Shown here in pieces: positions 23,803 through 29,998 of a stretch of 35,944 bases of DNA. Under the pieces are notes generated by a model. That model was not told where the DNA came from and did no database searches. It saw nothing but the letters and a program-made list of their open reading frames with translations. The DNA comes from a virus, in IMG/VR virus record IMGVR_UViG_3300047480_000525, positions 1-35,944 of that record. One strand, given 5' to 3'. A program made the position numbers and the translations under genes. Within the stretch, counting starts at the first letter, position 1; the number at the start of each line of letters is the position of its first letter.

Positions 23803-25113
23803 TTATTTGTTAGAAGACCCATAAAGACCATAACTATCACGAATCAATTTTAAACTCGTTACTGTTTGAGTTGCTTCAAAATGGTGTCTTAATTCTTTGA
23901 TTAAATAATTTCCACTTTGTTGTTTATCTACTTGTTTTTTGTCAGTTACTTCGATTGCGGGAAATTCAGCATGAATTATGTCACCAGCTTTTAAGTTGAT
24001 ATTGCATGGTACTACCATATTTAGTGCCTGTGTGAACAAAATATTATATCTTGATGCAGATTTTGCCATATCAGCAACATCTCTTCCAGACTCCTTAATA
24101 ACGGTCTCTTTATCCAGTACTCCTCTATCGGAAGTACGAACCATCATTCTTGTCCAAGATTCTCCCAATTCTTTTGATACGGCAATAGTATCATCTGTCC
24201 CTAAAGTATTTTTAATTTGCTCTTTTAATTTATAGATGTATATGTCCATCTTGCCAGTATATAAATCGTAAAAATAAGTTTTATTCGAATACATTCCAAC
24301 TCGCAATCCCTTCAATAAATCAATATTTTTTTCTATATTGTAATTCAAAATTATAAAAGGATTCTCAGTTTTTCCTGCTTCTACGGCACCTGTAAATACA
24401 TATTTTGGAATATTCTTTAAGTCTGCAGAAGAAGAACCAAGTTGTGTATTGGATACTAAACTGTCGGCACTTTTAAAATTAAATCCATCTTTATTCTCAT
24501 AAAAGAGGTAACCAGAAGTTCCCTTTGCCTCACCATTATTTCCTTCCCCAGAAACTCCACCAGAAGATAGTGGAGATGCTTTTGGTCCTAACCAAGTTAA
24601 TACTGTAAATGGTTTTCTTGTATTACCAATAAAACTATAACTATTTGAAGTACTTTCGATATTTTCAGATTTATATTTTGTTGTTTTTAAATCATCCTTT
24701 AATATAGTTTCAACAGTTGTCTTTATATTGCCCTCATATCGCCTAAAGCATCTTGTTGTTTCATTGGTAATACCTTCTCTGGAAATTAAATGCAAAGTGA
24801 ATGTTTCTTTAGTGTCCTTTGCCATAACATCACTAACCTTAAACACATACATTGAATATTCTTCATCCAAAGAAAATTCACCAGAACCAGTGTTAATACT
24901 AAAGGCAACTCTTTCTCCACCACGTATTGGTAAAAAATTATAAATCGAAGTGGAATTGGAAATCATCATACTCATAGTTATACATGGGGATAAAATATCC
25001 TCAAAGTAATCTACAAATAAAATTGAATTGGTAATATCAATTTTTTTAGAACCATCAAGTGATTCTATAACTGCATAATTATAACTTAAACCTTCTATTG
25101 CTGGATTTGACAT
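23803..25113 (-). CDS. gp27: Baseplate hub protein gp27-like
   Basis: 436 aa (MSNPAIEGLSYNYAVIESLD). The early part, DITNSILFVDYFEDILSPCI and FTLHLISREGITNET, and the end, GNYLIKELRHHFEATQTVTS followed by LKLIRDSYGL, fit the tube-like domains of T4 gp27, the trimeric hub on which gp5 docks and from which the tail tube grows. Length is close to the T4 protein (about 390 aa). The start codon shares a base with the stop of the M23/SGNH gene (TAATG), and gp5 follows after the 69-aa gene, matching the expected hub cluster. Confidence 0.82.
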   Translation of the reverse strand: MSNPAIEGLSYNYAVIESLDGSKKIDITNSILFVDYFEDILSPCITMSMMISNSTSIYNFLPIRGGERVAFSINTGSGEFSLDEEYSMYVFKVSDVMAKDTKETFTLHLISREGITNETTRCFRRYEGNIKTTVETILKDDLKTTKYKSENIESTSNSYSFIGNTRKPFTVLTWLGPKASPLSSGGVSGEGNNGEAKGTSGYLFYENKDGFNFKSADSLVSNTQLGSSSADLKNIPKYVFTGAVEAGKTENPFIILNYNIEKNIDLLKGLRVGMYSNKTYFYDLYTGKMDIYIYKLKEQIKNTLGTDDTIAVSKELGESWTRMMVRTSDRGVLDKETVIKESGRDVADMAKSASRYNILFTQALNMVVPCNINLKAGDIIHAEFPAIEVTDKKQVDKQQSGNYLIKELRHHFEATQTVTSLKLIRDSYGLYGSSNK

Positions 25114-27218
25114 TATGTTTGAGATAAATTGGTAAGAAGAAGAGTTTTCATCAAACTATTTACCATCTGTGATTCTGGTTTTCCTATTATAGTTGGTGCT
25201 TGAGGTGAACCTTGAGGTAAGGTTATTGAAGGAGTGCTGCTGCCAACTGGTGCGGATGGAGTTTTAATTGGAATGAGAACTATCGATGAACCTGGTGAAT
25301 TGTATTCTGGATAATTAGAAATATTCTTTTGCAATTTTGATAGTTCTTCTGGAGCAAACATAGAAACGTCAACTCCCATACCACCATATCCACCTCCCAT
25401 CATATCCTGTAATTTTTTACTATACTTTTGGTAATTTGGATGAACTTTATCCGTAGCATTAAAACCTCCAGCAAATTGAACGAATCCAGGGAATTCATTT
25501 GCCAATGCTTGAAGTTTTGAATTTATGGGAGATAAATCTGATCTATCAACACTAGTTCCCATTAATTGAACACCCTTTGCTCCCATAGATTTGGCATACT
25601 GCAATTGCTGTCTAACTGTTGCTAAATCGGATGGTTGATTTGAAATTCCAGAAGATAACCTAATTAGTTTTCCGCTCATATCTTGGGATTGCATCATTTG
25701 CAATACATCTTTTGGACTTGCTCCAGATTTTGCATAACCAGCACTTCCAGTTTTGTCTTTCACTCCCTGTGCAATACTATCACCAATTGTTAGCATGGGT
25801 GCAGACATAATATCATTTGCACTGAATTTTCCTGCTTGTCCATTTGATGTTGGTGCCACTGCTGGTGTTCCAGTTTTTATTGGTGATACTTTTGGAGTTT
25901 TGGGAGAAGTTCTTAAAAATGGTCTTGGGTCAATGATTTTTCCAGACGTATTATATAATTCAAAATGTAGATGTGGAAAATCCTTTGAACTTGCAGTATC
26001 TGCAGGTGAAACTGTTCCTATTTTTTCTCCTGTTTTAACTTCTTTTCCAACAGAAACGTTTGATAGTACATGCACATATCTTGTTTTTGTGCCATCTTTG
26101 TGTAATATTCCAATAGTTTGACTACTTCCACCTCCTTTTTGGAATGGATAACCACGACCAACTTCAACTACAGTTCCTGCCATTGCTGCTAAAACTGGAT
26201 CTCCTGCATTTTGGTCTGCAATATCTTGTCCAGCATGTCTTCTTCCACCACCCCTGTCTGCTCCAAATTGTGCCCCACCATACGTGCTCACATGCCCAGT
26301 CACAAATGGAGCAACCCGTTCTACGTTATCAAATCCAGGATAATTTGCATCTGTTGTTCCTTGGTCATCTACTCCAGGTCCAATATCGTTTTGATCCGCT
26401 GATATTATATCTGTTTCTGTTCCTTCACCTATTGGACTACTAGAATCTAAAGAAAACCCCATAGCAAAATCACTAAATTTGTTAACAACACTTTCAAACT
26501 TATCCATTGCATTTTTAAAACCACCAGAATCTTCTGATAATCCTTTTTGTTTCTGCTCTTGTGCTTTTAGTCTTTCTTTTTGTTTTTGTTCTAATGACTT
26601 CTCCCCAGTTACTCCTTCATATGCCCTATCTGCTGCGTATCCACCAATAAAATTTCCTGCCATACTTCCAATTACAAATCCAACTCCTGGGATTGGTATG
26701 AGTGTTTGTCCAATTGCACCACCAAGTAAACTACCAGCAAGAGCACCACCAGTACCAGCAGCAGATTTTCCTATACTTTCACCACTTGCAAGACCCGTGG
26801 CAAAATCCAATCCAGCAAATATACTATTAACAATTCCTATACTTCTTAATCCAGTAAATCTCAGACTCTTTCCTTTGGGGATTGGATTCTTTGGTTTTTT
26901 TGTTGATTCTCCAGGTTGTTTTCTTCCAGAAAACATATTTCCAAGGAATCCAGCAACATCAAAAGAACCACCAATCAATGACCTCAACAAATTACCAATA
27001 TTCCCAAAAGAACTAGCAACATTTAAATTTGCCAATTCTTTTATTTTTCTTTTTGTTGGTAATTTTATGGTTTGAAGTTCTTTAGTTTCTTTTAATAAAA
27101 AAGATGAGAATGATTTGTATTCTGACTGCATTTTAGTCAGACTTCTCTTAGTGCTACTATTAAGTGCAGCAATGCTATTAAAAGATGTAATTAGAGGTGA
27201 AGAAATTGTTTTTGCCAT
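25113..27218 (-). CDS. Tail protein with M23 peptidase and SGNH hydrolase domains
   Basis: 701 aa. Residues 1-100 are helical. About 145-200 is a Gly-zipper membrane-active stretch (GTGGALAGSLLGGAIGQTL). About 320-430 is an M23 (LytM) endopeptidase with all metal and catalytic motifs: RRHAGQDIAD, RYVHVL and HLHFELY. About 475-605 resembles an SGNH/GDSL hydrolase: MLTIGDSIAQGV at the start and DKVHPNYQKYSKKL as the Asp-x-x-His block. Near 612-635 is GGMGVDVSMFAPEELSKLQK, almost the same as in the neighbouring 625-aa protein. Stop and start codons overlap on both sides (TAATG). Likely role: tape-measure or hub protein that opens peptidoglycan or glycan as the tube enters the cell. The SGNH substrate is unknown. 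Confidence 0.82.
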   Translation of the reverse strand: MAKTISSPLITSFNSIAALNSSTKRSLTKMQSEYKSFSSFLLKETKELQTIKLPTKRKIKELANLNVASSFGNIGNLLRSLIGGSFDVAGFLGNMFSGRKQPGESTKKPKNPIPKGKSLRFTGLRSIGIVNSIFAGLDFATGLASGESIGKSAAGTGGALAGSLLGGAIGQTLIPIPGVGFVIGSMAGNFIGGYAADRAYEGVTGEKSLEQKQKERLKAQEQKQKGLSEDSGGFKNAMDKFESVVNKFSDFAMGFSLDSSSPIGEGTETDIISADQNDIGPGVDDQGTTDANYPGFDNVERVAPFVTGHVSTYGGAQFGADRGGGRRHAGQDIADQNAGDPVLAAMAGTVVEVGRGYPFQKGGGSSQTIGILHKDGTKTRYVHVLSNVSVGKEVKTGEKIGTVSPADTASSKDFPHLHFELYNTSGKIIDPRPFLRTSPKTPKVSPIKTGTPAVAPTSNGQAGKFSANDIMSAPMLTIGDSIAQGVKDKTGSAGYAKSGASPKDVLQMMQSQDMSGKLIRLSSGISNQPSDLATVRQQLQYAKSMGAKGVQLMGTSVDRSDLSPINSKLQALANEFPGFVQFAGGFNATDKVHPNYQKYSKKLQDMMGGGYGGMGVDVSMFAPEELSKLQKNISNYPEYNSPGSSIVLIPIKTPSAPVGSSTPSITLPQGSPQAPTIIGKPESQMVNSLMKTLLLTNLSQT

Positions 27219-29095
27219 TATCCGTCAACGATATTATAAACTATTTTAGAATACATTGTTAAGAAATTAGCAGGATCTGATGATGATAGTAATGGAACCG
27301 TTGGACCCTCATTTTCTGGTGGGACTACTATTTGTCCACCTCCACCTGTTGATTGTTGTGGTTGCTGCCCACCCGACATATCACCAATTGGAAGCATAGA
27401 AATTGTTGATTTTGCCTGAGATGGTGGTGGTTGAGAAATATTCATTGCCAATTTTGCTCGTTCTTCTGGAGCAAACATTGATGGATCAACACCAAGACCA
27501 CCCATTCCTTTATCTGGTTTTGCTTGTGGTTTTCCATAAAACTGGTTATAAATTCTTAAACTATCTGCTACAGTTCTAGAGGTTTGTCCCGTTGCTTCTC
27601 CATGGACACCTGCCCAACCAGCACTTCCACCAGCTTTCCTAATTGTTGCTTCTGTAGCTCTCTTTGATGGGTCAATTCCAATTGCTTGTAAGTGTGCTAA
27701 TGCCAGTTTATCTTGTATTTCGGGAGTCATGGGGGTATTTAAATCTACTCCTGCTCTACGTGCCGCTGCCCTCAACGTATCTGGCATAAACTGATATGCA
27801 CCAGTAGCACCACTCACTCTACCTCGATATTTTCCATATGCTATTTGCTTTCCACCAAGTCTATCTGGAAGTTTTCCAGTTTCGGACATTCTTGCAGCTT
27901 CTTCAATCGTTAATTTACCTTCTGCCAATTCTTTAACTACTTGCCCACCAAAAACTTTACCGTATCCGTCTTGTCCAGCAGTTCCCTCTGTGGCACGAAG
28001 AGTCTGCAACCATGCCTTTTCTTCTTGTGTATCAGCAGTAACATCTGATGCTCCACCTGTCATTCCACCACCAGAAGTAGATGGTGGTTTTGGTGTAGTT
28101 GTGCCACCCCCAGGAGCAGATGTTGATGGGGAAGATTTATCTTTTTTGGGACTTCCTTTTATCATCTCTTCAACTGCATTTGCAAATTTTTCAACAATAA
28201 AAGCAAACCTATCTGCAATACCCATTGGTATGTTAGTTACTTGTGGCATCGATTGGAGTCTGTCACTATCAGCAAGTGCATTTACTGCCAATCCTCCACC
28301 AACAGCACCCAAACCCAAACCAAGGAGACCAGCACCTTTACGACCAAACTTTACATTTCTTGGTGCAGTTCTTCGTAATGGTCCACCAGGAACATCGACA
28401 TCTAAATTTATTCCAGGACTACCTCCTGAAGATACTTGTGGTAAGTTTGATAACTGGGAAACTATTTTTAAAATTGTTTGTCTTATTAATTTTGCAATCT
28501 CAAAGCTTTCAGTAAAAGATGTTTTAAGTGTTTGTAATCCTTCTCTTAATTGTTTTATATTTTTTCCACTTCCAAAAAATTGAATAAATCCAACAGCATT
28601 TTGATATGCTTTTAGGAATTTATCCAATATTCCTATTGGTTTAGCACTATCAATATCTTCAGTTCTTTTTTTATAATTATCAGTTAACTGCTCTACAAAA
28701 TTTTTAGTTTGTTGTTGAATATTTTGTACTACAGTTTGAAGTTGAGTTACTTGATTTGTTTGTTGTTGTTTTATCTGCTGTATTTGATTTGTTATATTTG
28801 ATGATACTTGTTGTATTTTATCATCTGTTTGCTTATTAGTTATGTTAGTGGCATTTCTAACGCTATTATCTACTTGATTTAAAATATTTGACGATATTGT
28901 ACTTACAATACTATTAATATCTGGAGTTACTGGTTTTACTGCTGCACGTTGAAATCCTACAATTTTATTTGCTGCCGAAGAAACAACAGAAGACCCAAGT
29001 GGAACACCGCCAGATATAAAATTCTGTGCAGATTCAACACTTTTTGGACTTCTTCCTACTATTGTTTCTGGTCTAAGGGCAGACTTAATTGCCAT
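27218..29095 (-). CDS. Tape-measure-like tail protein with lambda-R-type muramidase domain
   Basis: 625 aa. About 60-150 is a Gln/Asn-rich coiled coil (VSSNITNQIQQIKQQQTNQV). About 245-275 is Gly-rich and membrane-active (GAGLLGLGLGAVGGGLAVNA). About 365-520 follows the phage lambda R transglycosylase closely: WLQTLRATEGTAG (catalytic Glu), GYGKVFGG, SGATGAYQFMPDTLRAAARR, DKLALAHLQAIG. Then GGLGVDPSMFAPEERAKLAM repeats a motif of the next protein. It starts 11 bp inside the 59-aa ORF, right after gp26, the usual place of a tape measure behind tail chaperone genes. Whether this or the 701-aa protein sets tail length cannot be read from sequence alone. Confidence 0.8.
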   Translation of the reverse strand: MAIKSALRPETIVGRSPKSVESAQNFISGGVPLGSSVVSSAANKIVGFQRAAVKPVTPDINSIVSTISSNILNQVDNSVRNATNITNKQTDDKIQQVSSNITNQIQQIKQQQTNQVTQLQTVVQNIQQQTKNFVEQLTDNYKKRTEDIDSAKPIGILDKFLKAYQNAVGFIQFFGSGKNIKQLREGLQTLKTSFTESFEIAKLIRQTILKIVSQLSNLPQVSSGGSPGINLDVDVPGGPLRRTAPRNVKFGRKGAGLLGLGLGAVGGGLAVNALADSDRLQSMPQVTNIPMGIADRFAFIVEKFANAVEEMIKGSPKKDKSSPSTSAPGGGTTTPKPPSTSGGGMTGGASDVTADTQEEKAWLQTLRATEGTAGQDGYGKVFGGQVVKELAEGKLTIEEAARMSETGKLPDRLGGKQIAYGKYRGRVSGATGAYQFMPDTLRAAARRAGVDLNTPMTPEIQDKLALAHLQAIGIDPSKRATEATIRKAGGSAGWAGVHGEATGQTSRTVADSLRIYNQFYGKPQAKPDKGMGGLGVDPSMFAPEERAKLAMNISQPPPSQAKSTISMLPIGDMSGGQQPQQSTGGGGQIVVPPENEGPTVPLLSSSDPANFLTMYSKIVYNIVDG

Positions 29096-29264
29096 TTGAT
29101 TGTTGTTGTTTTAATTTTTCTTCTTCAATATGCTGCTGCAATAATCCAACGTAAATATCCCTTTCCCAGGGTATCATATTTTCAATCTCAGTCAATGAGT
29201 ATTTATGGAACTGCATGAGGGCAAAATTGATTCTAAAATAAGCCTCAAGATCCATATGAGACAT
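29085..29264 (-). CDS. 59-aa tail-chaperone-like ORF downstream of gp26
   Basis: MSHMDLEAYFRINFALMQFH, then KYSLTEIENMIPWERDIYVG and a Lys/Gln/Glu-rich helical tail. The helical 'ENMIPWERDIY' pattern is what short tail-assembly chaperone extensions look like in other phages (P2 E', lambda T). The ATG lies 2 nt after the gp26 stop and has no close ribosome binding site: the nearest GGAGG is 25 nt upstream. It is also in frame with a -1 frameshift from gp26 at 29273-29279. It overlaps the tape-measure-like gene by 11 bp. In T4 the position after gene 26 is held by gene 51, also an assembly factor. It may be made alone, as a gp26 fusion, or both. Confidence 0.75.
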   Translation of the reverse strand: MSHMDLEAYFRINFALMQFHKYSLTEIENMIPWERDIYVGLLQQHIEEEKLKQQQSNGN

Positions 29265-29266
29265 AA

Positions 29267-29998
29267 TTAGCCGAAAAAACTCGTTAACCCCTCCAACGTC
29301 ACTTCATTTACTACTCCAGTTTTAGGATTTTTTACTTTTAAAGTATGAGAAAGTTTTGGCATGGTCTCAAAGAAATGCTCAATTTTCTTAAATTGAGAAG
29401 AATTCATTTGCTCAATGAACTCAATTAATTCTTTTTTTGTGCAGTCTGATGCTGCCCAGGATTCCTCATCATTATACACCATATCAATACAGGAAGAAAT
29501 AATATCAAAAGACTTTTCAATATTGTTTTCACTTTGAACTTCACTAAAATCAAAATTATTTTTAATGAATTGGTCCAAAGATGGATACTTCATCTTCATA
29601 ATCAAATTGTCATCCAATTTTATATCAGAAGAATGTTCTGGATTTTTTTGAACTTTTATTTCATCAATATAAACTGTCACTGGAACTTGTGTGTTCTCAT
29701 TATCATCATAGCACGTAACAATCAAATCAATATTTTCTCCTACAGATTTCCCCCTAACATTTAGAAATACATATTCAATATCAAAAGTTGGAAGATCCTC
29801 TACTTTAACTCCTTTAGTGAGGATGCATTCTTTTAATACCTGCTTTATTGCATTTGTAATTTGTTTGGTGTCTTTAGATTCTAATGCAATAATTAAAATT
29901 TTTTCTTCTTTAACTAAAAATGGTCGGTATTTAATTATTTTCCCATTTGATGGTAATTCCAACTCATATGTTGGTGTAGAAATCTTCGGTAAAGGCAT
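29267..29998 (-). CDS. gp26: Baseplate hub/tail assembly protein gp26-like
   Basis: 243 aa. The N-terminus YELELPSNGKIIKYRPFLVK followed by EEKILIIALES is the signature of the T4 gp26 baseplate family (Pfam T4_baseplate). Residues 60-110 contain VEDLPTFDIEYVFLNVRGKS, also typical. It ends EGLTSFFG, where the final Phe codons form T TTT TTC. T4 gp26 works in hub assembly and is not clearly a virion component, fitting a chaperone role. It lies 34 bp downstream of the gp54-like gene with AATAAATA in between, and directly before the 59-aa ORF and the tape-measure-like gene. Confidence 0.8.
   Translation of the reverse strand: MPLPKISTPTYELELPSNGKIIKYRPFLVKEEKILIIALESKDTKQITNAIKQVLKECILTKGVKVEDLPTFDIEYVFLNVRGKSVGENIDLIVTCYDDNENTQVPVTVYIDEIKVQKNPEHSSDIKLDDNLIMKMKYPSLDQFIKNNFDFSEVQSENNIEKSFDIISSCIDMVYNDEESWAASDCTKKELIEFIEQMNSSQFKKIEHFFETMPKLSHTLKVKNPKTGVVNEVTLEGLTSFFG
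29273..29294 (-). promoter_or_regulatory. Candidate -1 ribosomal frameshift site
   Basis: Minus-strand T TTT TTC (29279-29273) sits in the gp26 frame as AGT TTT TTC GGC TAA, which is the X XXY YYZ arrangement. GGAGG (29294-29290) lies 10 nt before it, the spacing at which internal Shine-Dalgarno sequences stimulate -1 shifting in dnaX. After a shift, CGG CTA ATT ATG runs open into the 59-aa ORF. P2 E/E' uses T TTT TTG. Confidence 0.6.

Follow-up and report, generated by a model that had tools for sequence, protein, structure and literature searches.

How does a T4-like phage use the short open reading frame (ORF) that begins directly after its gene for gp26, and is the product of this ORF a separate protein at all? 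The question arises in the virus record IMGVR_UViG_3300047480_000525, all 35,944 bases of which were analyzed here (the window) and which carries T4-like tail genes; the features of the locus lie on its minus strand. The gene for gp26 (29267..29998, 243 amino acids) matches PF12322 (Pfam E 5e-73) and phrog_150 (E 5e-79). It is followed by an ORF of 59 amino acids (29085..29264), annotated elsewhere as gp51 or 'baseplate hub assembly catalyst', which matches phrog_634 (E 2e-27) and whose ATG lies 2 nucleotides (nt) past the gp26 stop. An interpretation made from the letters of the window (the sequence-only reading) had proposed that a programmed -1 frameshift joins the two into the myovirus counterpart of a tail assembly chaperone pair. 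On the evidence of sequence comparison, we consider it very probable that the gp26 gene makes both a short form and a -1 frameshift fusion, and that these are the counterpart of lambda G/GT and P2 E/E'.

The last codons of gp26 read TTG GAG GGG TTA ACG AGT TTT TTC GGC TAA. The heptamer T TTT TTC, at 29273-29279, stands in X XXY YYZ phase, one codon before the TAA stop (29267..29269), and the Shine-Dalgarno (SD)-like sequence GGAGG, at 29290-29294, lies exactly 10 nt upstream. From the heptamer the -1 frame reads FF-R-L-I-M-S-H-M and onward, stays open for 64 codons up to a stop at 29085-29087 and includes the 59-amino-acid ORF. The extension after a slip (29085..29279; FF, 62 residues and the stop) also matches phrog_634 with E 2e-27, and the predicted fusion product would have about 304 amino acids. 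No SD sequence was found at normal spacing before the ATG of the short ORF in the window. The sequence-only reading was therefore exact to the base as to the heptamer and GGAGG, and correct as to the frame and to the ATG without a properly spaced ribosome binding site. The window contains about 120 in-phase X XXY YYZ heptamers, including eight of the T TTT TTN type in 11,565 codons, and the gp26 site is the only one that both lies no more than 12 codons from the end of its gene and leads into a long -1 reading frame beyond the stop.

A motif in one genome could be luck, and it is the conservation across relatives that rules out a chance heptamer. In a first set of 80 viral contigs and named phages, every close relative carried NNT TTT TTC. 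Wider sets gave 178 usable loci, which were reduced to 96 representatives by clustering at 90% amino acid identity. An in-phase T TTT TTN was present in 89 of the 96, as T TTT TTC in 80, T TTT TTT in eight and T TTT TTG in one, and the remaining seven had no canonical site. The phages with the site include Kyanoviridae, KVP40-like and Emmerichvirinae Straboviridae, phiM9, pf16, DLP6, ACP17, Milchi and Yut3. The extension lay in the -1 frame in all 96 representatives, which rules out a +1 shift. The sequence-only reading had named relatives without the heptamer, or with the ORFs in an incompatible phase, as counting against it; these figures, with an incompatible phase in 0/96, agree with what it expected of heptamer and frame.

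The codons themselves indicate what is being conserved. Among 73 close relatives, the first codon of the Phe pair is TTT in all 73 and the second is TTC in 70, compared with gene-wide frequencies of 65% and 35%, respectively. The residue before FF varies (S, D, A or N), and its codon is always NNT. Given that TTT TTC is frozen and that NNT is kept with a variable residue, the constraint acts on the nucleotides, not on the protein. The corresponding log10 P is about -38 if the representatives are treated as independent, which they are not. Elsewhere in gp26, columns 70-75 of the codon alignment also showed high synonymous conservation (mean codon identity of 0.82 versus 0.54 gene-wide).

Two further elements flank the heptamer. 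Among 74 Kyanoviridae representatives, GGAGG or GAGG was found exactly 10 nt upstream in 62, so that the upstream element, whose conservation the sequence-only reading had proposed to check, is also kept, and AAGG was found at 9 nt in another 10 (72/74 together). The Glu of the EG motif is encoded by GAG in 63 of 75 cases, as against 30% gene-wide. On the 3' side, the RNA structure z-score in 60-nt windows has an isolated peak at the first base past the heptamer (mean of -1.67; other offsets, +0.51 to -1.07). A hairpin that can reach 11 pairs, the first of them 5 nt past the heptamer, has at least seven pairs in 51 of the 74; in most of the window's clade it starts 5-8 nt downstream and shows compensatory changes. 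In the 74-row alignment, which was not chosen for pairing, 74% of cells were paired versus 26-46% with the partners slid, a count that the kinship of the sequences inflates; covariation was 0.213 versus at most 0.109 when slid, and 0 of 500 shuffles matched the hairpin score. We also observed that the Ala codon of the 5' arm (GCT, GCG or GCA) tracks its partner codon (GAG for Glu, GCG for Ala or GTG for Val), so that a synonymous choice in one arm follows an amino acid change in the other. An Rfam search identified no RNA family; its match fell below the threshold and is put down to chance. This conserved hairpin, together with the SD-like sequence, suggests that the ratio of the short to the long form is tuned. 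Relatives show a second, weaker structure peak (mean z of -1.07) some 210 nt 3' of the heptamer, close to where the next gene starts.

We propose that the locus works as follows. Most ribosomes would read to the TAA and produce gp26, the short form, and a fraction would move back by one base on T TTT TTC, both Phe tRNAs being able to re-pair with TTT TTT. Anti-SD pairing to the GGAGG 10 nt upstream would aid the slip, as would, in this lineage, the hairpin 5-8 nt downstream. Slipped ribosomes would bypass the stop and append the 62-residue extension that is annotated as a separate 'gp51' (the proposed TAC-C). The products would be the short (TAC-N) and long (TAC-NC) forms of a tail assembly chaperone (TAC), encoded just before a candidate tape-measure gene. 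In T4 and its close relatives, the same two forms would be supplied by the paralogous genes 26 (short) and 51 (long). We infer the slippage itself and its rate from these features of the nucleotide sequence. The counterpart proposed by the sequence-only reading is supported by the layout and its conservation, with slippage and the chaperoning of a tape measure as its predicted parts.

The relation to T4 can be followed in the proteins. T4 gp26 (208 amino acids) and gp51 (249 amino acids) both match PF12322 over most of their length (E 9e-64 and 4e-52, respectively). The extension is absent from T4 gp26, which consists of PF12322 only, and present in gp51, whose C-terminal approximately 48 residues match phrog_634 (E 1e-23) in frame and can be aligned to the cyanophage extension, with FF at the junction. 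A comparison of the cyanophage extension with the C-terminus of T4-type gp51 by hhalign gave 96.5% (E 9e-10). T4 therefore shows both marks of the family, the PF12322 N-domain and, in the long form, the phrog_634 extension. T4 genes 26 and 51 lie on opposite strands, as do those of phiAS4, Krischvirus and a Proteus phage; in RB43 (L191:2501-3794), the 51-like and 26-like genes are neighbors on the same strand and overlap by 8 nt. In an unrooted tree of the N-domain, 20 gp26 and gp51 rows fall on one side of a branch (100/99.6), and gp51 forms one group. These sequences are most simply read as the outcome of a single duplication in the T4 lineage, after which the short and the long form each had a gene of its own. 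Because the frameshift form is widespread, it may be the ancestral one, later replaced; the tree itself is unrooted. The suggestion that T4 gp26 and gp51 correspond to the pair is supported by the shared domain and the extension on gp51, with the difference that in T4 the two are paralogous separate genes, not joined by a frameshift.

Several observations weigh against this interpretation. Seven representatives, namely six Ackermannviridae and Vibrio phage K452, keep the extension without a canonical heptamer. Their site is ATT TTC, GTT TTC or CTT TTT, where full re-pairing is possible only for the A-site tRNA; the -1 extension is recognizable and often annotated as intergenic. One such case is L093:3235-3410 (also L084 and L166-L183), where a gp51-like -1 extension labeled 'intergenic' comes right after gp26 at ATT TTC or GTT TTC. 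The window's own hairpin (29237..29267) is imperfect, with 9 of 11 pairs and two mismatches, and its z of +0.65 is not below that of shuffles. In addition, the clade tree is too poorly resolved for independent compensatory events to be counted, the sign test is underpowered, and the 51-row hairpin alignment was selected for pairing. On the protein side, the predicted structures of gp26 and T4-type gp51 are confident (predicted local distance difference test scores of 88 and 90, respectively), and a Foldseek search of both against the PDB gave no match at E<=0.001, HK97 2ob9 appearing at E 3.5. Sequence profiles against the PDB gave no informative match either, and a Pfam scan of the window's gp26 matched no TAC model. 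Known tail chaperones diverge widely, so that a missing match is not decisive. Finally, the tape-measure identity of the next gene (27218..29095, 625 amino acids), which overlaps the extension by 11 nt, appears weak from its sequence: the sequence-only reading called it tape-measure-like, and it does match tape-measure PHROGs (E 4e-4 and 2e-3), but its strongest match is to a phage endolysin family (phrog_90, E 1e-23) and it has a lysozyme/SLT-like region. Another long gene, with an M23 peptidase domain, occupies 25113-27218, and either of the two could be the tape measure.

The missing fold match and the weak tape-measure signature would both be expected if frameshifting were real and its products served only in assembly of the baseplate hub, the process in which T4 gp26 and gp51 are usually described. 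We regard this as unlikely, because a gene that yields short and long forms through -1 slippage and directly precedes a long gene has the architecture of tail chaperones. The two roles are also compatible, as gp29, the tape measure of T4, belongs to the hub, and a published analysis names TACs of T4-like phages in its title (Vladimirov 2022). In lambda, G and GT are made at about 30:1, are both absent from virions and load the tail tube onto the tape measure (PMC5009743). The same paper calls the frameshift widely conserved among long-tailed phages 'except T4', and T4 gp26 and gp51 have been listed as hub assembly chaperones, gp51 being essential and of unknown function (PMC3004832). We infer the chaperone role from this architecture and literature rather than from the fold.

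Alternatively, ribosomes might stop at the TAA and restart at the ATG 2 nt on, so that gp26 and gp51 would be separate proteins with little or no fusion. The window's ATG is well placed for such reinitiation, a first start codon is found at index <=6 of the extension in 67 of 95 complete representatives, and databases annotate two proteins. However, the first seven extension codons contain no ATG, GTG or TTG in the other 28, and in four phages (C48C1, Vibrio D479, Aeromonas Aswh_1 and one cyanophage contig, L100) no start occurs before codon 28, although heptamer and extension are kept. The extension of Syn19 likewise lacks a start until codon 20. The extension protein is conserved from FF onward. 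An ordinary start therefore cannot yield an intact separate extension in many representatives, and fusion would be the only plausible route to it in the start-less relatives. Moreover, an SD sequence at the right distance is lacking, the ATG of relatives lies in the hairpin stem, T4 gp51 is itself a fused protein, and reinitiation leaves the frozen T TTT TTC unexplained. Reinitiation in place of frameshifting is thus very improbable, although at a low level it could coexist with it. Slippage of RNA polymerase, rather than of the ribosome, on the T6 run (T7 in eight representatives) that nearly all of them carry is hardly credible, since the run is shorter than the 9-A/T runs cited for bacterial transcriptional slippage (PMC5009743), and such slippage would have no need of an X XXY YYZ phase, of GGAGG upstream or of a hairpin.

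The frameshift reading places gp26 among several known systems. Like lambda G/GT and P2 E/E', the locus has a short protein and a -1-extended long protein, the slip being placed at the 3' end of the gene for the short form. The P2 site is T TTT TTG, which differs from that of the window in its last base; the Sinorhizobium phage phiM9 (L187:1501-1689) carries this P2-type heptamer at its gp26 end. Unlike the lambda and P2 proteins, the gp26 family belongs to PF12322 and has no detectable sequence match or significant fold match to solved chaperones, and its site is accompanied by an SD-like element and a downstream hairpin. The T4 pair shares the PF12322 domain with the cyanophage pair, but has separate genes and no frameshift. 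The chaperones of Vandenendeviridae and Andersonviridae likewise have a poly-T slip motif (GTTTTT) and an extension annotated as separate or missing; they belong to other phage families and use another motif, and the accessible part of that report mentions no upstream SD or hairpin (PMC12846349). A similar layout is that of Escherichia coli dnaX, which also combines an upstream SD, a slippery heptamer and a downstream stem-loop (PMC5600365), but the gene is another, the heptamer is A AAA AAG, and the shift shortens the product, whereas at gp26 it lengthens it. In the Kyanoviridae, the upstream SD of this layout is found in 72/74 and the stem-loop in 51/74, the window's own stem being imperfect.

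A study by Vladimirov, Gautam and Davidson (Virology 2022) is said to treat the tail chaperone genes of T4-like phages, and its title reportedly announces a mechanism other than frameshifting. According to a paper citing it, separate short and fused long genes occur in some T4-like phages (PMC10885494), and another credits it with poly-T slip signals in the TAC-N genes of T4-like phages (PMC12846349). Frameshifting in T4-like chaperones was therefore at least partly known. In the open-access papers searched, we found no report of Kyanoviridae-wide conservation, of the start-less lineages or of the SD and hairpin cassette. What is new is the RNA structure peak just 3' of the heptamer and the arrangement of SD, heptamer and hairpin in the clade.

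In public annotations the locus appears with two genes, with a second gene cut short or with no second gene, and no joined coding sequence was present among the public records examined. Public phage records include 785 with a gp26 relative and 572 with an extension. Hundreds of T4-like genomes thus appear to list as a second protein, or to leave out, what is most likely the end part of a fusion. For gp51, the comparison with T4 offers a concrete hypothesis: gp26 and gp51 would be the short and the long form of one chaperone. More broadly, we give an even chance to the idea that T4-like phages have solved the problem of making short and long forms twice, by a frameshift with a tuned dnaX-like cassette on the cyanophage and KVP40 side, and by duplication and in-frame fusion in T4. 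If this is true, then the cassette would be tuned for a higher, or a regulated, ratio of long to short form than that of lambda.
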